Part shown: one piece after another, positions 20,033 to 28,301 of the stretch | How positions within the stretch are numbered: the stretch's first letter is position 1 | Layout of the letters: each line of letters begins with the position of its first letter | Assembly (NCBI RefSeq): GCF_006912135.1 | Contig: NZ_VIRS01000021.1 | Coordinates: 1-64,000, forward strand | Direction: 5' to 3' | DNA: 64,000 bases | From: Cryptosporangium phraense | Lineage (GTDB): Bacteria; Actinomycetota; Actinomycetes; Mycobacteriales; Cryptosporangiaceae | The notes under the pieces: generated by a model | The model's database searches: none | Seen by the model: only the letters and a program-made list of their open reading frames with translations | Told to the model about the DNA's origin: nothing | Program-made: the position numbers and the translations under genes

Positions 20033-20242
20033 ATGGCCGACGACACCACGCACGCCCGCAGCGCCGTCACCGGCGAGTTCGTCACCGACGACACCGCCGC
20101 GAAGCACCCCGACACCACCGTCGTCGAGGGCTCGTCCCAGGACGGCGACTCCAAGCGCAATCGCAGCGCGGTCACCGGCGAGTTCGTCTCCGACGACACC
20201 GTCGACAAGCACCCCGACACCACGGTCGTCGAGAAGGGCTGA
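20033..20242 (+). CDS. 69-aa protein made of two copies of a 24-aa module
   Basis: A small acidic protein with an excellent AGGAGG ribosome binding site. Residues 9-32 and 44-67 are near-copies, 21 of 24 identical: RSAVTGEFV, then DDT, then KHPDTTVVE. Single-copy versions of this R-S-x-x-T/S-G-x-F-V ... HP-x-T-T-V motif occur in many short uncharacterised bacterial proteins. Here the unit is duplicated in tandem with an 11-residue linker. No signal or membrane segment. Function unknown; the strong RBS suggests high expression. Confidence 0.75.
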   Translation: MADDTTHARSAVTGEFVTDDTAAKHPDTTVVEGSSQDGDSKRNRSAVTGEFVSDDTVDKHPDTTVVEKG

Positions 20243-20339: not shown

Positions 20340-21323
20340 GTGACCGTGCAAACCTCCCTCAAACCCACCCTCGCCCTCCTGGCCCTCGGCACCGCCTTCG
20401 TCGCCGGGGGAGTGCTGCTCCTGCACGCCGGCGCCCAGTACGCCTGGGACGGCTCCGCCCCGACCTGCGCCGGCGACGTCATGTCACCCGGCGACCAGTG
20501 CCTCTCCTGGGGCCGCCGCGGCAGCTACGACTACGACCAGGGCATCGTCGACGCGGTCGACAGCGGCCGCTTCCTGCGCGGGATCGGCGGCATCCTGGTC
20601 GGCGGCCTCGGCGCGACGCTCCTGTACGCCGCCGGGAGCTTCGCCCGGCGTCCGGCCGGTCGCATCTGCGCCGCGTCCGGCCTGCTCACGCTGTTCCTGG
20701 CGGCCCTCGGTCTGCTGACCGTCGGCTCCGGGTTCGCGCTCGTCGCGGCCGTCGGCGCGGCCGCCGCCGGCGTCGTGCTCAGCGTCGCGATCGGAGTGCC
20801 GGTCGGGCGGGTGGTGTACTACGCCGCCGGCGTCGGCCTGCTCGCCGGTGCGGCCGCGCTCGTCGCCTCCGGCTCCGCGTATGCCTTCGGTGGACGCCTG
20901 TCCGGCGCCGGCCCGTCCGATTCGCTGACGCTGTTCCTGGCCGACGCGTTCCGCGCGCACGGCGCCGAGTTGCGGTACGTGGGCGCGGTGGTGGCACTCG
21001 CCGTCGCCTGCCGGCTACTGCGCACCGCTCTGGACGGTCTCCCGCGCGAGTCGGTCGGGCCGGACTCCGCCACCGACCTCTCGGACGCCGAGCTCGAAGC
21101 GCGCCACCACCTGATCCTCACGCCGGTCACCCCGACGAGCCTGCGCGCCGGGCTGTGGTGCGCGGCCGGCGCGGTGGCCTGGGCGGGCGCCGCCTACCTG
21201 GCCACCCGGGCCACCGCGGCCGGGTCGGTCGGCGCGGTCGTGCTGGTGCTGCTCGGCCTGGCCGCGGCCGGACGTCTCGCCCCGCGCCGCCGCCCGGTCG
21301 CTCACCTGTCGGAGATCTCGTAG
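20340..21323 (+). CDS. polytopic membrane protein of unknown function
   Basis: A 327-aa protein with about seven to eight Ala/Gly/Leu-rich membrane helices. After the first helix (residues 9-30) comes an extracytoplasmic loop with two cysteines, PTCAGDVMSPGDQCLSW, which may form a disulfide. A cytoplasmic loop near 240-260 is charged. GTG start with GAGGAG upstream. The last 22 bases overlap the convergent acyl-CoA-ligase gene. I do not recognise the family. Confidence 0.7.
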   Translation: MTVQTSLKPTLALLALGTAFVAGGVLLLHAGAQYAWDGSAPTCAGDVMSPGDQCLSWGRRGSYDYDQGIVDAVDSGRFLRGIGGILVGGLGATLLYAAGSFARRPAGRICAASGLLTLFLAALGLLTVGSGFALVAAVGAAAAGVVLSVAIGVPVGRVVYYAAGVGLLAGAAALVASGSAYAFGGRLSGAGPSDSLTLFLADAFRAHGAELRYVGAVVALAVACRLLRTALDGLPRESVGPDSATDLSDAELEARHHLILTPVTPTSLRAGLWCAAGAVAWAGAAYLATRATAAGSVGAVVLVLLGLAAAGRLAPRRRPVAHLSEIS

Positions 21324-22876
21324 CTCCGGGCCAGGTCGCGGAGGACGTTCTTCGCGACCTTGTCGAGGGTGGCGCGGGGGAACTCGTCCACGAAGTAGAC
21401 CGCGCGGGGGACCTTGAAGTCGGACAGCGTCTCCCGGCAGCGGTCGATCACGGTCGTTCCGAGCAGCACCTCGTCGGCGTCCGGGGCCTTGATGACGAAC
21501 GCGACCGGGACCTCGTCCAACATCGGGTGCGCGGCGCCGACGACCGCGACGTCGGCGACGCCGGCGACGGTCCGGCAGACGTCCTCGACCTCGCGGGCCG
21601 AGACGTTCTCGCCGCCGACCTTGAGCAGGTCGGAGTCGCGCTCGCAGTAGACGAGGGCACCGTCCTCGCCGAGGCGGACGATGTCGCCGGTGCGGAACCA
21701 GCCGTCGTCGGTGAACGACTTCGCCATCGCGCCGGGGTCGTCGAGGTACTCGGCGAACAGCTGGATACCGCGGGTGCCGCGGATCCACAGTTCGCCGGGC
21801 CGGCCGTCGGCGCAGACCTCACCGGTGGCCGCGTCGACGACGAGGGCCTCGTAGCCGGGGGTGGGGGTGCCCATCGCCCGCGGTGGCGGGGAGAAGCCCG
21901 GGCCGGCCGTGATCGCCGGGGTGACGGTCTCGGTCATGCCGAACGCGGGCAGGATCGCGAAGCCGAGCGCGGCCTCGAGCTCGGGCACGACCGCGCCGAA
22001 GACCCCGGCCTTCAGCCGGTGCTCCGGGGCCGGGTGGCTGAGGATCGCCCTGATGACGAACGGGATCAGCGAGATGTGCGTGACCCGGTGCCGGGCGACG
22101 ACGTCCCAGAACCGGGACGCCGAGAACCGGGGCTGGAGCACGACCGTGCCGCCCGCCCCGAGCGTCGTCCAGATCGACCAGCTCTGCGCGTTGACGTGGA
22201 AGAACGGCAGGTAGACGAGGTAGACGTCGTCGGCGGTCATGCGCAGGGTCGTCGGGGCGACGCGGGCGGCCCAGAGCGCGTTGGCGTGGGTGTGCACGAC
22301 CGCCTTGGGCCGGGACGTCGTCCCGGACGTGAACAGGATCCCGGCCGGCGCCAGCGGCTCGGCCGCGCGCGGGGCGAGCGAGGCCGGGTCCCCGAACAAC
22401 GCGTCGAACGCGAGGCCGCCGGTTCTGGGCCCGCCGTCGGCGCCGGCGGCGCCGTCGGTGACCGCGACCCACCGCAGACCGGGCGCGGCCTCGGCGATCA
22501 GCGCGGCGAACGCCGGTTGCGTCACCGCGGCGACGCAACCCGCCTTCTCCACGAAGTACGCGACCTCGGCGGCCGAGCTCCGCGTGTTCGTCGTGACCGT
22601 CACCGCGCCCAGCGTCGCGCAGGCGTACCAGGTCAGCACGCCCTCCGGGCAGTTCTCGGCGTGCAGCAGCACGGTGTCACCGGGTCCGATGCCCCGCCCG
22701 GCCAGGCCGGCCGCGACCCGGCGCACGTCGGTCCAGAACTCGGCGTACGTCCAGGTCCGGGGCTCGGCGTCGAACGGGGCCCAGATCAGGAACGGCTTGT
22801 CCGGCTGCCGGGCCGCCCACGACGCCAGCAGCCACGGGATGTCCTGCCCGGCGAACTGGAACTCGGCTGCGCTCAT
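21302..22876 (-). CDS. AMP-forming acyl-CoA ligase (CaiC/FadD-like)
   Basis: A 524-aa ANL-superfamily ligase that would activate a carboxylic acid with ATP to its CoA thioester. The P-loop-like motif A3 is FTSGTTSRPKAVVHTH (near 180), the ATP/adenylate motif FGMTETV (near 310), A7 WFRTGDIV and the A8 hinge with LLKVGGENVSAREVED; the catalytic C-terminal Lys lies in TLDKVAKNVLRD. The N-terminal part is closest in style to crotonobetaine/carnitine-CoA ligases. It overlaps the upstream crotonase gene by one base (TGATG), so both belong to the minus-strand arm of the sterol/lipid cluster. Substrate unproven. Confidence 0.88.
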   Translation of the reverse strand: MSAAEFQFAGQDIPWLLASWAARQPDKPFLIWAPFDAEPRTWTYAEFWTDVRRVAAGLAGRGIGPGDTVLLHAENCPEGVLTWYACATLGAVTVTTNTRSSAAEVAYFVEKAGCVAAVTQPAFAALIAEAAPGLRWVAVTDGAAGADGGPRTGGLAFDALFGDPASLAPRAAEPLAPAGILFTSGTTSRPKAVVHTHANALWAARVAPTTLRMTADDVYLVYLPFFHVNAQSWSIWTTLGAGGTVVLQPRFSASRFWDVVARHRVTHISLIPFVIRAILSHPAPEHRLKAGVFGAVVPELEAALGFAILPAFGMTETVTPAITAGPGFSPPPRAMGTPTPGYEALVVDAATGEVCADGRPGELWIRGTRGIQLFAEYLDDPGAMAKSFTDDGWFRTGDIVRLGEDGALVYCERDSDLLKVGGENVSAREVEDVCRTVAGVADVAVVGAAHPMLDEVPVAFVIKAPDADEVLLGTTVIDRCRETLSDFKVPRAVYFVDEFPRATLDKVAKNVLRDLARSYEISDR

Positions 22877-23679
22877 CACGCCCCCACGAAGTTCGGCGGG
22901 CGCTTCTCCAGGAACGCGGTCGGCCCCTCCACGGCGTCCTTCGAGGCCATCACCTCCCGGCCCAGCGCCTCCTCGATCCCGAACGCCTCGGCTTCCGGCA
23001 GGCACTCGGTCTCGCGCAGCGTCGCCAGGATCGCCCGCACTGCCAGCGGCCCGTTGGCCGCGATCCGATCGGCGATCTCGCGGGCCTTGGCCAGCGCGGA
23101 CCCGTCCGGCACCACGTAGTTGATCAGCCCGAGCTCGCGGGCCCGCTGGGCCGGGATGTCGGCCCCGGTCAGCAGCATCTCGGCCGCCACCGCGTACCCC
23201 ATCTGGCGACGCAGCCGCACCGCCGACCCGGCCATCGGGAACAGCCCGCGCTGCACCTCGGTGACCCCGAACACGGCCGACTCGCCGGCCACCCGGATGT
23301 CGGTGCCCTGCAGGATCTCGGTGCCGCCGGCCCGGGCCACGCCCTCCGCGGCCAGGATGATCGGCTTGGTCGGCCGGTAGGTCTTGAGGTAGGCCGCGAG
23401 CGAGATCCCGGGCTCGTCCTGGAGCCGGACGATCCACTCGTTGTCCTGGACCCCGGCCCGCAGGCGTCCGATCTCGGCCAGGTCCATGCCCGCGCAGAAC
23501 ACCGGGCCGCGTCCGGTGAGGATCGCGACCCGTAGCGTGTCGTCGGCGTCCAGGCGTTTCCAGGCGTCGAGCAGCCGGCAGAGGATCTCGGCGTTCGTCG
23601 CGTTGCGCTTCTCCGGCCGGTTGAGGGTCACGGTCAGCACCGGCCCGTCGGCCTCGACGAGTACGAGCGGCTCGGTCAT
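22876..23679 (-). CDS. enoyl-CoA hydratase
   Basis: A 267-aa crotonase-fold enzyme. The oxyanion-hole segment is CAGMDLAEI (near 62), and GVARAGGTEILQGTDIRVA forms the second part. Both catalytic glutamates expected of a true hydratase appear to be present, in FGVTEVQRGLFP and in AAEMLLTG, so hydration of a 2-enoyl-CoA is likely. The C-terminus FLEKRPPNFVGA matches the common family ending. Four-base overlap with the next crotonase upstream. In the context of the Ltp/DUF35 arm, a role in side-chain beta-oxidation is inferred. Confidence 0.88.
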   Translation of the reverse strand: MTEPLVLVEADGPVLTVTLNRPEKRNATNAEILCRLLDAWKRLDADDTLRVAILTGRGPVFCAGMDLAEIGRLRAGVQDNEWIVRLQDEPGISLAAYLKTYRPTKPIILAAEGVARAGGTEILQGTDIRVAGESAVFGVTEVQRGLFPMAGSAVRLRRQMGYAVAAEMLLTGADIPAQRARELGLINYVVPDGSALAKAREIADRIAANGPLAVRAILATLRETECLPEAEAFGIEEALGREVMASKDAVEGPTAFLEKRPPNFVGA

Positions 23680-24488
23680 CGGGTCCCTTTCTCGGCGGCG
23701 AGGTGGTGGCGGATCGCGTCGCCCATCGCCGGGCTCCGCAGGATGTCGGCGAAGGCCGCGCCCTCCCTCCGGCGGGCCTCGGCCACGGCCTCGCGACGGG
23801 ACGCGGTGATCAGGGCCTTCGTCGCCCGGACGGACGCGTCGGGGTGGGCCGCGATCCTCGCGGCCAGGCCGATCGCGGCCGACAGCAGGTCGGCGGGGGC
23901 GTAGGCCCGGAGGGCCAGGCCGGAGTCGACCGCCTCGGCCGCCGAGATCCAGTCCGACGTGAGGAGAGCCTCGGTCGCCCGCTGGACGCCCATCCGGCGG
24001 GGGAGCAGGTAGCTGCCGGCGGCTTCGGGAACCACGCCCAGCTGGGTGAACGGCGCTTTCAGACGGGCGTTCTCGGAGACGAGCACCAGGTCGCAGTGCG
24101 CCAGCAGGGTCAGCCCGAGCCCGACGCCGGCGCCGTTCACCGCGGCCAGCAACGGTTTCCCGAACCCGACGACGGCGTCGAGAAAAGCGTCGAACGGGTG
24201 GCCCTCGTCGGCCGCACCGCCCTCCGCGGTGTCGGCCATTTCGGCCAGATCCGTGCCCGCGGTGAACGTCCGCCCGGCCCCGGTCAGCACCACGACGCCG
24301 ACGGCGTCGTCCGTATCGGCCTCGGTGAGGGCGGCCGCCGCACGGCGGTACAGCGCCCGGTCGAAGGCGTTGGCCCGGGACGGGCGGTCGAACGTGAGCA
24401 CGCGGACCCGACCGTGGTCCTCGGTCCGGACCCGACCTTCCTCAGCCAAACCGGCCTCCGGAGAACGTTGCGATAACAGCGGAATCAC
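23676..24488 (-). CDS. crotonase-family protein, enoyl-CoA isomerase-like
   Basis: A 270-aa crotonase-fold protein. The oxyanion-hole segment is TAGTDLAEM. The first hydratase glutamate seems to be replaced: the segment reads KAPFTQLGVVPEAAGSY, with a glutamate in VVPEAAGS, the position used by delta3-delta2-enoyl-CoA isomerases. So isomerisation rather than hydration is more likely. First gene of the minus arm. The GTG start lies 10 bases from a KstR-like palindrome, with TAGATT about seven bases upstream as possible -10 of a leaderless transcript. A start some 15 codons further in cannot be excluded. Confidence 0.8.
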   Translation of the reverse strand: MIPLLSQRSPEAGLAEEGRVRTEDHGRVRVLTFDRPSRANAFDRALYRRAAAALTEADTDDAVGVVVLTGAGRTFTAGTDLAEMADTAEGGAADEGHPFDAFLDAVVGFGKPLLAAVNGAGVGLGLTLLAHCDLVLVSENARLKAPFTQLGVVPEAAGSYLLPRRMGVQRATEALLTSDWISAAEAVDSGLALRAYAPADLLSAAIGLAARIAAHPDASVRATKALITASRREAVAEARRREGAAFADILRSPAMGDAIRHHLAAEKGTR

Positions 24489-24511
24489 ACTGTAATCTAG
24501 AACGCGTTCTT
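24468..24511 (+). promoter_or_regulatory. promoter with KstR-like operator between divergent sterol/lipid operons
   Basis: For the plus arm, -35 TTGCGA (24468-24473), 17 bases, -10 TGTAAT (24491-24496; five of six consensus bases). Just downstream lies the perfect 12-bp palindrome AGAACGCGTTCT (24499-24510). Extended to 24498-24511 it reads TAGAACGCGTTCTT, matching the mycobacterial KstR pattern TnnAACnnGTTnnA except for the last base. A repressor bound here would cover the start point of both operons. Confidence 0.7.
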
Positions 24512-24545
24512 GCTTGGACGGAACTGCCCGAACGGAGGGCCGGAT

Positions 24546-25502
24546 GTGACAACGTTCGTCGAGTCGACGGTGAGATTCCCCTACAAGCGCTCGTTAGGGT
24601 CGGTCATCGGGTACTTCATGACCGCGCTCACCGACCGGCGCATCGTCGGGATCCGCAACGGCGATCGAGTACTCGTTCCACCGCTGGAGTGGGACCCCGC
24701 GACGGCCGAGCAGCTCAATCCCGACTTCGTCGACGTCGGACCGGCGGGCACGGTCCGGTCCTGGACCTGGGTCGCCGCGCCGAGCGGACAGCACCCGCTC
24801 GACCACCCGTTCGCGTTCGCGCTGATCGAGCTCGACGGGGCCAGCACGACGCTGCTGCACGCGGTCGACGCCGGTGACATCTCGGCCATGGAGACCGGCC
24901 TGCGGGTCGCCCCGCGCTGGCGGGCCCAGCGGGTCGGGCACCTCACCGACATCGAGGCGTTCGTCCCGGGCGAGGAGCCCGTCACGCCGGAGGACGACGC
25001 CGGGCCGGCGGCCGAGCCGGTCACGATGATGAACTACGACGCCTCGATCTCCTACACGACGCCGGTCCCGGAGACCCAGCTGGTGTTCGGCAAGGCGTTC
25101 GCCGAGGGACGCCTGGTCGGGCTGGAGTGCCCGAACTGCCACCGCGTCTACACCGGGCTCCAGCAGGCCTGCCCGGTCTGCGCGATCCCGCTGAACGGCA
25201 CGCACGAGGTCGAGTTGCCGCAGACCGGCACGCTCACCACGTTCACGATCATCACCCCGGTGCAGTACCCGGGCCAGACCGAGACCGAGCCGTTCGCCCG
25301 CGTGCACGTGCTGACCGACGACATCGACGCGGTGCTCGCCTACCAGCCGGTCGTGGACTTCCCGAACGCCGACGTGCACCCGGGCGTCCGCGTGAAGGCG
25401 GTCTGGACGACCGACGCGGACGGGAAGCAGGAGCTCGCGGGCTGGACCCCGACCGGGGAACCCGACGTCGATGACCCTTCGATCGTGAATCGGATCTTCT
25501 GA
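24546..25502 (+). CDS. DUF35 (OB-fold, zinc-ribbon) acyl-CoA-associated protein, Rv3521-like
   Basis: A 318-aa protein with two parts. Residues 1-160 form an N-terminal domain like that of Rv3521-type proteins. From about 175 there is a DUF35 domain with a rubredoxin-like zinc ribbon CPNC...CPVC (Cys 195, 198, 209, 212) followed by an OB-fold ending in HPGVRVKAVW. DUF35 proteins pair with SCP-x/thiolase-like partners; ChsH2 with Ltp2 is the studied case, making a steroid side-chain aldolase. Here the partners are the next two genes, with a one-base overlap. GTG start with GGAGG upstream; an ATG two bases earlier is out of frame and stops at once. Confidence 0.85.
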   Translation: MTTFVESTVRFPYKRSLGSVIGYFMTALTDRRIVGIRNGDRVLVPPLEWDPATAEQLNPDFVDVGPAGTVRSWTWVAAPSGQHPLDHPFAFALIELDGASTTLLHAVDAGDISAMETGLRVAPRWRAQRVGHLTDIEAFVPGEEPVTPEDDAGPAAEPVTMMNYDASISYTTPVPETQLVFGKAFAEGRLVGLECPNCHRVYTGLQQACPVCAIPLNGTHEVELPQTGTLTTFTIITPVQYPGQTETEPFARVHVLTDDIDAVLAYQPVVDFPNADVHPGVRVKAVWTTDADGKQELAGWTPTGEPDVDDPSIVNRIF

Positions 25503-26554
25503 TGGAGCCTGTGGCGATTGTGGGGTGGGCGCTCACCCCGATGGTCCGGCGGACCGACAAGTCCGAGGCCCGGCTGCTGTTCGACGTCGTGACCGGCGCG
25601 ACCGAGGACGCCGGCATCACCCGCGCCGACGTCGACTTCTCCTGCGCCGGGTCGTGCGACTACGTGGCCGGGCAGGCGTTCTCGTTCGTCCAGAACATCG
25701 ACGCGGTCGGCGCCTGGCCACCCAAGCGCGACTCGCACGTCGAGATGGACGGCGCCTGGGCGTTGTACGAGGCCTGGGTGCGGCTGCAGCTCGGCGACCT
25801 CGACGTTGCGATCGCGATGGGCTCCGGGCGGTCGTCGACCGCCGACCCGGCGACGATCTACCCGATGGAGATGGACCCCTACTACCTCGCTCCGCTCGGT
25901 GCCGACGCGGTCTCGCTGGCTGCGCTCCAGGCCCGCGTCCTGCTGGACGCCGGGCTGGTCACCGAACGGGACATGGCCGGCGTGGCCGCGCGGACTCGGG
26001 CCGACGCGGTCGGCAACCCGTACGCGCAGGTCTCCGGCGAGTACGACGTCGACGCGCTGCTCAAGGAGGACTACGTGCGGGCGCCGCTGCGCAAGCACGA
26101 CCTCTCGCCGATCACCGACGGGGCGGCCGCGGTGATCATCGCCCGCGGCGACAAGGCCCGGGAGCTGAGCGACAACCCGGTCTGGATCACCGGCTTCGCG
26201 CACTCGGCCGAGCCGCACCAGCCGGGCGTCCGGGACCTGCGGGCGTCGACGTCGACGGCACGAGCGGCGAAGGCCGCCGGCGCCGACGGGCACTTCGACG
26301 TCGCCGAGCTGCAGGCCGCGTTCACTCACGAGGAACCGCTGCTCACCGCCGCACTCGGCCTCGGGCCCGACGTCGCCGTCAACCCGTCGGGCGGACCGCT
26401 GGCGGCCAACCCGGTGATGGCGACCGGGCTCGTCCGCGTCATTGAAGCGGCGCGCCAGATCCGGGACCGCGGGAAGCAGCGCACGCTGGCGCACGCGACG
26501 TCCGGCCCGTGCCTGCAGCAGAACCTCGTCTGCGTGCTGGAAGGAACGAAATGA
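25502..26554 (+). CDS. ltp4: Ltp4-like (SCP-x) thiolase/aldolase-type protein
   Basis: A 350-aa thiolase-superfamily protein of the lipid-transfer-protein (SCP-x) type, lacking the C-terminal sterol-carrier domain. It shows the N-terminal VAIVGWALTPMVRR, the loop CAGSCDYVAGQAFSF, MGSGRSS near 100, the DGAAAVIIARGDKA strand, and the C-terminal NPSGGPLAANPVMATGL and ATSGPCLQQN. These proteins catalyse retro-Claisen or retro-aldol cleavage of beta-keto- or beta-hydroxyacyl-CoA. The gene order DUF35-ltp4-ltp3 is that of mycobacterial Rv3521-Rv3523. In Rhodococcus, Ltp3 and Ltp4 have been tied to degradation of C24-branched sterol side chains. Overlaps the next gene by four bases. Confidence 0.82.
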   Translation: MEPVAIVGWALTPMVRRTDKSEARLLFDVVTGATEDAGITRADVDFSCAGSCDYVAGQAFSFVQNIDAVGAWPPKRDSHVEMDGAWALYEAWVRLQLGDLDVAIAMGSGRSSTADPATIYPMEMDPYYLAPLGADAVSLAALQARVLLDAGLVTERDMAGVAARTRADAVGNPYAQVSGEYDVDALLKEDYVRAPLRKHDLSPITDGAAAVIIARGDKARELSDNPVWITGFAHSAEPHQPGVRDLRASTSTARAAKAAGADGHFDVAELQAAFTHEEPLLTAALGLGPDVAVNPSGGPLAANPVMATGLVRVIEAARQIRDRGKQRTLAHATSGPCLQQNLVCVLEGTK

Positions 26555-27717
26555 GCAGCAACCCGTGCGCGATCGTCGGGATCGGGCAGACGAACCACAA
26601 GACCCGGCGGTGGGACGTGTCGCTGGGCGGGCTGGTCCGCGAAGCGGCCACCCGCGCGCTCGAGGACGCGCACATGACCTGGGCCGACATCGACGCGGTC
26701 GTGCTCGGCAAGGCGCCTGACCTGTTCGAGGGCGTCATGAAGCCGGAGCTGTACCTGACCGACGCGCTCGGCGCGGCCGGGAAGCCGATGTTCCGGGTGC
26801 ACACAGCGGGCAGCGTCGGCGGGACGACCGGGATCGTCGGCTCGCACCTGGTCGAGGCCGGGATCCACCGCACGGTGCTGTCGCTGGCGTACCAGAAGCA
26901 GTCCGAGGGCAACGCGCAGTTCGCGCTCGGGTCCGGGCGGGGGGCGTCGCTCGGCGCGGGCGGGGCGTTCGCGCCGTACATGCGCTCGTACATCACCCAG
27001 ACCGGCGCCCCGGCCGACGTCGGCCCGATGGTCGCGGTCAAGGACCGGCTGAACGCGCTGAAGAACCCGTACGCGCACCTGAAGTTGAAGGACATCACGG
27101 TCGAGAAGGTCAAAGAGTCGCCGATGATGTGGGAGCCGATCCGGTACCTGGAGTCGTGCCCGTCGTCCGACGGGGCCTGCGCGGTGATCTTCACCTCACT
27201 CGAAGGGGGGCAGGCCGCGGCGGCGGACGGGCGCCCTCCGGCCTGGGTGCTGGCCTCGTCGTACCGGTCGGAGCCGTCGTCGTTCCCCGGGCGGGACCCG
27301 GTCTGGTCGGCCGGGGCGGCCGACTGCGCGGCCGAGATCTACAAGTCGGCCGGGATCACCCGGCCGCGCGAGCAGATCGACTGCGCCGAGCTGTACGTGC
27401 CGTTCAGCTGGTACGAGCCGATGTGGCTGGAGGCACACGACCTGGCCGACCGGGGCGACGGCTGGAAGATGGTCGAGCGGGGCGACACCGCGCTCGACGG
27501 GTCGTTCCCGGTGAACATGTCCGGCGGCGTGCTGTCGTCGAACCCGATCGGCGCGTCCGGGCTGCTCCGCTTCGCCGAGGCCGCGATGCAGGTCCGCGGC
27601 ACCGCGGGGGAGCACCAGGTCGACGGCGCGAAGGTGGCGCTGGCCCAGGCCTACGGGGCGTCGGCGCAGTACTTCAGCATGTGGCTGGTCGGCAGCTCGC
27701 TCGACGCGGTGGGCTGA
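26551..27717 (+). CDS. ltp3: Ltp3-like (SCP-x) thiolase/aldolase-type protein
   Basis: A 388-aa thiolase-superfamily protein. Recognisable parts: CAIVGIGQTNHKTRR at the N-terminus, AGSVGGTTGIVGSHLVEAG near 95, SCPSSDGACAVIF near 205, PVNMSGGVLSSNPIGASGL near 325 and the C-terminal AYGASAQYFSMWLVG. Most likely a heteromeric partner of the Ltp4-like and DUF35 proteins encoded just before it. Context (KstR-like operator, crotonases, CoA ligase, TetR gene) points to sterol or isoprenoid side-chain cleavage. The reaction, aldol or thiolytic, is not settled by sequence. Confidence 0.82.
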   Translation: MSSNPCAIVGIGQTNHKTRRWDVSLGGLVREAATRALEDAHMTWADIDAVVLGKAPDLFEGVMKPELYLTDALGAAGKPMFRVHTAGSVGGTTGIVGSHLVEAGIHRTVLSLAYQKQSEGNAQFALGSGRGASLGAGGAFAPYMRSYITQTGAPADVGPMVAVKDRLNALKNPYAHLKLKDITVEKVKESPMMWEPIRYLESCPSSDGACAVIFTSLEGGQAAAADGRPPAWVLASSYRSEPSSFPGRDPVWSAGAADCAAEIYKSAGITRPREQIDCAELYVPFSWYEPMWLEAHDLADRGDGWKMVERGDTALDGSFPVNMSGGVLSSNPIGASGLLRFAEAAMQVRGTAGEHQVDGAKVALAQAYGASAQYFSMWLVGSSLDAVG

Positions 27718-27725
27718 GCCCGGCC

Positions 27726-28301
27726 ATGGCGGGCGGGGCGGCGTTCGAGCTCAGCGCGGACGAGATCGTCCGCGCGGCCGTCGAGATCCTCTACGAGCAG
27801 GGTCTGGACGCCGTGAGCATGCGCACGGTCGCCGCCCGCCTCGGTGTTTCGCCGGTGCCCCTGTACAGCCGGGTCGGCAACAAGGAAGCGCTGCTCGACG
27901 CGGTGGCGGACACCGTGCTGGTGGACGTGGCCCCGGATCGTGCTCTCGGCGAGCGCTGGCCGGAGTACACCGCCCGGTGGGCATCGACGTTGCGGGACCG
28001 GCTGGTGACGATCCCCGACATCCGGCGGCTGCTGTCGCTGCGCCGCTCGCCGTTCGTCCCGGCCGCCACCGTGCTCGTCGCGATCCTGCGCGACGAGGGC
28101 GGGTTCGGCGGCCGGGCCGCGGTCGAGGCCGTGCAGTTGCTGTCGTGGGCGGTGATCGGGTACGCGGTGCTGGAGTCGGGCGCGGAACCCCGGCCGCGCC
28201 GGACGGCTCCGGATCCGACGTCGGTCAGCCGGGCCCAGGCGGACCATCTGTTCGAGCTGCACGTGCGGTATCTGGTGGAGGGCCTGGAACGGGATCGCTG
28301 A
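27726..28301 (+). CDS. TetR/AcrR-family regulator
   Basis: A 191-aa TetR protein. The N-terminal DNA-binding domain includes ADEIVRAAVEILYEQGLD and the helix-turn-helix TVAARLGVSPVPLYSRVGNK. The C-terminal ligand domain is of the TetR_C type, with VEAVQLLSWAVIGYAVLESG. It begins 8 bases after the ltp3-like gene and is probably cotranscribed. KstR-type proteins are themselves TetR members, so it could bind the palindrome at 24499-24510 and respond to an acyl-CoA intermediate; that link is only inferred. Confidence 0.85.
   Translation: MAGGAAFELSADEIVRAAVEILYEQGLDAVSMRTVAARLGVSPVPLYSRVGNKEALLDAVADTVLVDVAPDRALGERWPEYTARWASTLRDRLVTIPDIRRLLSLRRSPFVPAATVLVAILRDEGGFGGRAAVEAVQLLSWAVIGYAVLESGAEPRPRRTAPDPTSVSRAQADHLFELHVRYLVEGLERDR

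Follow-up and report, generated by a model that had tools for sequence, protein, structure and literature searches.

A predicted KstR operator and an abutting candidate TetR operator at a divergent lipid/steroid-type promoter of Cryptosporangium phraense

The intergenic region that separates a crotonase/CoA-ligase gene row from a divergent DUF35-Ltp4-Ltp3-TetR operon of Cryptosporangium phraense, within the 64,000-nucleotide stretch of DNA analysed here (the window), carries two adjoining palindromes. Judged from sequence comparison, these are probably best explained as a KstR operator and an abutting TetR operator, which together would constitute a two-repressor promoter.

The predicted KstR box and the genes around it

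The box TAGAACGCGTTCTT (24498-24511, a palindrome assigned to neither strand) matches the fuller KstR consensus, TAGAACNNGTTCTA, at 11 of 12 positions. The core AAC-NN-GTT lies within the TnnAACnnGTTnnA palindrome, both AGAAC/GTTCT arms are perfect, the inner 12 bases (24499-24510) form the perfect palindrome AGAACGCGTTCT, and the last base is T where the consensus has A. This consensus agrees with the table of Kendall 2007 in the available part of that paper (PMC1995591), which also holds a precedent for the last-base mismatch in the Rv3531c/Rv3532 site, ACTAGAACGTGTTCCTGTTT, which is without the final A and is marked +ve. The preliminary description of this DNA had noted a palindrome fitting the KstR pattern save for its last base; this is borne out at 24498-24511, which is very probably a KstR operator, predicted here and of a known kind. 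At no more than one mismatch the box is the sole match to TAGAACNNGTTCTA in the window, against a mean of 0.00 in shuffled sequences, while the looser pattern TNNAACNNGTTNNA at one mismatch gave 8 window matches against a shuffle mean of 1.94, so that the looser pattern alone is weak evidence.

Immediately upstream the box adjoins a putative forward-strand promoter (24468-24496), the hexamers of which were read in the sequence as TTGCGA (24468-24473) and, after 17 bases, TGTAAT (24491-24496), in agreement with the position reported for it previously; in a second species of the genus (G002) the same stretch aligns as TTGACG-17-CGTAAT. Its earlier designation as a strong promoter proved unsupported, since a sigma-70 consensus scan of 24300-24700 for -35 and -10 hexamers returned 0 promoter-like sites under a rule by which the second base of the second hexamer must be A, a base that is G in TGTAAT. 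Transcription would be expected to start at approximately 24503, seven bases past the -10 element and within the KstR box, and the DUF35 start codon (GTG, 24546) lies 42 bases from the box centre.

The flanking genes are those of the two divergent operons described before, a CoA-ligase/crotonase operon and a DUF35-Ltp4-Ltp3-TetR operon. On the forward strand are a DUF35/ChsH2-C OB-fold protein (24546-25502; PF01796, 66.4 bits against a cut-off of 27.1), an Ltp4-type thiolase-like protein (25502-26554; NCBIfam PRK07937 lipid-transfer protein, 459 against a cut-off of 419), an Ltp3-type thiolase-like protein (26551-27717; NCBIfam PRK08313, 584 against 514) and a TetR-family regulator (27726-28301; PF00440), which is not KstR and whose closest solved relatives are ActR and TetR. 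On the reverse strand lie a crotonase (EchB; 23676-24449; PF00378), with a TTG start at 24449 inferred from the start codons of relatives, an EchA19-like crotonase (22876-23679), which exceeds the cut-off of PRK07799 (340 against 316) and falls below that of the EchA19 equivalog NF051848 (332.6 bits against 400), and an acyl-CoA ligase (21302-22876; PF00501). A CoA-ligase gene occupies this place beside the crotonases in the source genome (G000) and in one other species of the genus (G003), and is absent from it in the remaining two (G001 and G002). Elsewhere in the window, a small protein encoded at 20033-20242 consists of two near-identical repeats (SAVTGEFV.DDT..KHPDTTVVE).

Neither thiolase-like protein has a cysteine in the usual place, and a YVPF motif is present in all nine aligned Ltp3 proteins. 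A DUF35 partner accompanied by thiolase-like proteins would be consistent with retro-aldol cleavage of the side chain of a lipid or steroid. The steroid side-chain aldolases Ltp2/Sal with their DUF35 partner, as presented in the available text of PMC12329534, are alike in that thiolase-like proteins stand beside a DUF35 protein, and they retain a Tyr in a Y-x-x-F motif; we read the YVPF of Ltp3 as the counterpart of the YDHF of Ltp2/Sal, the known systems being compared by description. Kinship to an Ltp2/Sal-type structure in the PDB is distant (6ok1, E=1.6e-13), and a PDB search with the window DUF35 protein gave no match at E<=0.001.

KstR and its boxes across the genome

The preliminary description had made its regulon reading depend on a KstR homologue in the genome, and one is encoded in G000 (8.46 Mb) at C1:483437-484093. 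It matches M. tuberculosis KstR (PDB 5ua2) at E=2.6e-72 and the NCBIfam transcr_KstR equivalog NF033703 with 314 bits against a cut-off of 280, its recognition segment reads VALGTLYRYFPSK vs VAVGTLYRYFPSK in alignment to the M. tuberculosis KstR structure, and a box is found in its own promoter, 176 bases upstream of the kstR start.

Throughout the genome AGAACNNGTTCT occurs 19 times against 2 for the reversed control (TNNAACNNGTTNNA: 49 against 19), and 16 of the 19 sites have a start codon at -30 to +250 bases. Twelve are intergenic, in loci whose intergenic share is 10.3% (binomial P 3.7e-8, based on our own simple gene calls and on loci picked around the sites); site C20:50393 was intergenic in one gene-caller run and in-gene in another. 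At least seven boxes lie within called genes, several of which have no link to lipids; the in-gene box on C10 stands 19 bases before an acyl-CoA-dehydrogenase-like start, and those on C12, C27 and C36 look like chance. Such in-gene copies, together with the commonness of the looser motif, are what would favour reading the box at 24498-24511 as a chance match without function. We consider this very improbable, given that so strict a search of 64 kb should yield 0 matches by chance, that the box lies over the expected transcription start, that KstR is encoded, and that the box is identical in G002 inside a 22-base identical block, the longest of the intergenic stretch (next longest, 9). A chance origin was set aside on the excess over the reversed control, the intergenic excess and the shuffled sequences.

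The expectation that further copies of the motif would be located at sterol genes held. On C1, boxes stand before an operon that encodes HsaA (625 against a cut-off of 450) and HsaC (532 against 450) and, with an identical 14-mer TAGAACGCGTTCTT at C1:473455, kstD (863 against 788), opposite which lies a divergent operon with a 4-hydroxy-2-oxovalerate aldolase that is likewise above its cut-off. A fuller-pattern site, TGGAACCTGTTCTA, precedes a steroid 3-ketoacyl-CoA thiolase (639 against 515). The genes that we take to be kshA and cyp125 (a P450) gave no hit to an NCBIfam model at E<=1e-60, and those FadE and FadD proteins that were tested scored under the NCBIfam cut-offs.

Some boxes are arranged in pairs. 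Tandem boxes 2 bases apart occupy the hsaA-hsaC divergent promoter (C1:462195 and 462211; L021:12195-12225), and two boxes 100 bases apart (C20:25438 and C20:25538; L029:7439 and 7539) lie in a CoA-ligase/P450 intergene, beyond which are two similar TetR genes, a DUF35-like gene and a thiolase-like gene; this is likely a further lipid locus linked to KstR and separate from the main cluster. At C15:42566 and C20:137242, KstR boxes stand 23-33 bases before two genes, presumably F420-dependent oxidoreductase-like.

With boxes at sterol genes and an encoded KstR, the cholesterol-type regulon proposed earlier withstands two of the three refuting conditions named for it, the third being transcription on sterols. 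KstR control beyond the mycobacteria is already known: in the available portions of the sources, the name kstR originates from Rhodococcus (Kendall 2007, PMC1995591), and ltp3, ltp4, fadD19 and echA19 are tabulated as KstR-regulated in Nocardioides simplex (PMC7807495). Kendall 2007, in the same available part, gives a KstR motif tagaacaggttcta before M. tuberculosis Rv3521 (DUF35-ltp4-ltp3), a further motif, marked +ve, between Rv3515c and Rv3516, and ltp3, ltp4, fadD19 and echA19 within the KstR regulon. As these four are known KstR genes in the literature, the core finding is expected, and the KstR part taken alone is ordinary, one more site of the sort that this known regulon would lead one to expect. 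The palindrome and the regulator family are shared with the regulon of M. tuberculosis, M. smegmatis and Rhodococcus and its Rv3520c/Rv3521 site, where, as far as the available text of PMC1995591 goes, DUF35-ltp4-ltp3 likewise lies behind a box that overlaps the promoter region. The window operon differs from Rv3521 in that it belongs to a divergent subfamily, encodes a TetR of its own, has another palindrome abutting the box and faces divergent crotonase/CoA-ligase genes. The N. simplex regulon is alike in having non-mycobacterial KstR sites, induced on phytosterol; the available text of PMC7807495 yielded neither a second palindrome nor an operon-borne TetR for it, both of which are features of the window. 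A literature search for Cryptosporangium together with steroid and cholesterol found no papers.

Operon types and distribution of the box among relatives

Matches to the window DUF35 protein occur in 22 of 61 related genomes, and the full-length ones are of two kinds, those of the other three genus species (72-81% identical) and those of the Rv3521 type (about 41-45%). From 38 match rows, the 17 full-length ones (4 window-type, 13 Rv3521-type) were examined for boxes and 21 short split ones were omitted; all 13 Rv3521-type loci examined carry a box of at least 10/12. In G004 a locus of the Rv3521 type bears a 10/12 box but no KstR was found in the genome at E<=1e-20, which weighs against a tidy account of these boxes. 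Both types are present in G003, where they are 41% (DUF35), 55% (Ltp4) and 61% (Ltp3) identical to each other and where the Rv3521-type copy, with its own box CAGAACGTGTTCTA, belongs to the steroid cluster. DUF35 matches number one in G000, one in G002 and one in G001, the last with an additional marginal match (E=7.9e-4), and the Rv3521-type copy seems to be missing from these three genomes. Identification of the window operon as a true Rv3521 operon was rejected on its 41/55/61% identity to the G003 steroid-cluster copy; it would work like the Rv3521 operon yet is a divergent sister.

A search of 394 genomes of the class (DUF35, E<=1e-75) returned the source genome itself and 13 genomes of family f32, including Frankia nepalensis (G295). 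Box counts for the window type and for a third type cover all 16 rows of this search and the three genus members, and the gene calls in relatives are our own, not annotation. The third type (50-53% identical; f32, the Frankia family) has an 11/12 box in seven of nine loci. Among window-type loci, a KstR box is present in two of four in the genus (G000 and G002) and in none of six in f32 (Frankiaceae-like). Both F. nepalensis and G399 carry the window and third types, with boxes on the third type only. At 17 contig loci of relatives, a set that shares F. nepalensis with the f32 set, no 10/12 box lies within 400 bases upstream, and a 10/12 match is found anywhere in the stretch at 2 of the 17.

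KstR itself is present in G001, G002 and G003 (89-93% identical), which hold 21, 23 and 23 copies of AGAACNNGTTCT, respectively. Since G001 and G003 lack the box at this operon despite a KstR that is 92-93% identical and 21 and 23 boxes elsewhere, KstR control of the operon is dispensable in the genus. In the operon tree G000 and G002 fall together (support 100), and an unrooted quartet of 25 steroid-cluster proteins supports the same split with 195 columns against 63 and 58, G000 and G002 having the longer branches. The box was probably gained once in the G000/G002 lineage, and its presence in two of the four genus species and in none of the six Frankiaceae-like copies gives it the look of a recent recruitment. 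The reverse history, an ancestral box lost in G001 and G003, is possible in principle as boxes are found at operons of the Rv3521 type and the third type beyond the genus, but we judge it improbable in view of the tree and the quartet and of the window-type copies outside the genus, which are without a box both in f32 and in the 17 upstream 400-base stretches. A rule by which loss of the Rv3521 type always leads the window type to take up a box was rejected, because G001 has neither; this genome counts against a simple replacement story.

The second palindrome and a proposed two-repressor control

The second palindrome, an inverted repeat (IR1) of sequence AATCACACTGTAATC at 24483-24497 (assigned to neither strand), matches GATTAC-N3-GTAATC at 10 of 12 positions, overlaps the -10 element and abuts the KstR box; no base separates the two palindromes in the window or in G002. 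An overlapping IR1-like copy, GATAACAGCGGAATC, is present at 24472-24486 (10/12, likewise unstranded). In a four-species alignment, the conserved block upstream of the box reads GATTACACCGTAATC in G002 (12/12), AATTACAGCGTAATC in G001 (11/12), GATTACGGTGTTATC in G003 (11/12) and AATCACACTGTAATC in the window, so spelled in G000 (10/12), and IR1 is kept in all four species. Across complete genomes, exact ATTACNNNGTAAT has a single copy in G001 and a single copy in G002, each located at this promoter; G000 has one copy, which lies elsewhere, and G003 has none, with controls at 0-1. The background in 414,205 nucleotides of fetched G000 DNA is 0 positions at 11/12 and 9 at 10/12.

The TetR of the operon is 73-79% identical in the four genus species, all of which possess it, and searches at the cut-offs used detected it in 5 genomes out of 397 in the order and in 3 out of 394 in the class. 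The F. nepalensis TetR is 58% identical, and GATTACGGTGTTACT (9/12) precedes the row's first gene by 101 bases, with the TetR gene further down the row after a 207-base gap. In G595 (TetR 46% identical), GATCACAGTGTAATC (11/12) stands 14 bases before an acyl-CoA dehydrogenase ORF that opens an acyl-CoA dehydrogenase-oxidoreductase-TetR row, ending in the TetR; at locus L126, where the simple gene caller performed poorly, ORFs were taken from a separate listing. No IR1 of at least 10/12 was found nearby in G399 (TetR 37% identical). The distribution of IR1 seems to follow that of the TetR and not that of the KstR box, with G399 as an exception, and IR1 is reasonably likely to be the operator of the operon's own TetR, as predicted from this co-occurrence; the modest matches in the window (10/12) and in F. 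nepalensis (9/12) and the result in G399 weigh against it.

Autoregulation of the operon is common among TetR-family repressors, and this TetR gene is the last of the operon, which would lend some appeal to the view that the box at 24498-24511 is read by this or another TetR-family protein instead of KstR. Such a reading is scarcely credible: the TetR and the neighbouring palindrome occur in all four genus members and the box in two, identical boxes are found at the steroid cluster and before kstR, and the TetR is related to KstR by fold alone. The local TetR (27726-28301) was set aside as reader of the KstR box on this mismatch of distributions.

A more serious, if still doubtful, alternative is that IR1 is no operator and instead represents a pair of -10 elements placed back to back in a symmetric divergent promoter, with GTAAT read on either strand. 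Its right arm overlaps the proposed -10 element, its left arm reads TGTAAT or TGTGAT on the other strand, and the flanking genes diverge. This is countered by the similar site in G595, which precedes a non-homologous row with a 46%-identical TetR, and by the lower scores (7 to 9/12) at Frankia-family type-B operons whose fetched stretches contain no relative of the TetR, TetR content having been checked in one of them (L128).

With IR1 taken as a TetR operator, the mechanism that we infer, from binding and ligands to start site and two-signal logic, draws on the observed sequences, homologues, genome-wide distribution and conservation. A KstR dimer would bind 24498-24511 over the start of the DUF35-Ltp4-Ltp3-TetR operon and would perhaps limit the divergent crotonase/CoA-ligase genes too. 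Sterol-derived acyl-CoAs are the known ligand class of KstR, and they would release the repressor so that the side-chain-cleaving enzymes are made during sterol breakdown. The operon's TetR, bound at IR1 over the -10 element, would hold down the operon that encodes it and respond to some ligand; KstR at the start and TetR at the -10 element would each block RNA polymerase, and full expression would need both to be off.

A parallel is offered by SRTF1, a steroid-responsive TetR of N. simplex with a 22-bp palindrome (available text of PMC7062782), which is also a second, KstR-independent TetR of steroid genes and whose palindrome, like that of the window, is situated at a divergent promoter, the two being likened without sequence comparison. 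Unlike the window, the SRTF1 palindrome is reportedly located next to a kstD-like gene that has no KstR site, according to the available part of PMC7807495.

As to the origin of the zero-gap double operator, we tentatively suggest, at somewhat short of even likelihood, that TetR ancestrally held the promoter of an operon for a steroid or lipid aldolase and that in one lineage the KstR box later arose adjoining the TetR site, over the start. A formerly independent operon would so have joined the cholesterol regulon under two-signal control, in step with loss of the Rv3521 type from these species. If true, this would be regulon expansion caught in the act, by the gain of one operator.

Judged by sequence, the KstR cholesterol regulon hereby reaches one more actinobacterial genus that is not mycobacterial. 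What merits testing is the abutting candidate second operator and the patchy, recent-looking KstR box, which provide a testable case of an operon drawn into a regulon when one operator is gained next to another already in place. Together with its predicted site, the local TetR could constitute a new sensor of a lipid or steroid side-chain intermediate, and the ligand of this TetR would reveal the substrate degraded by the window-type aldolase operon.
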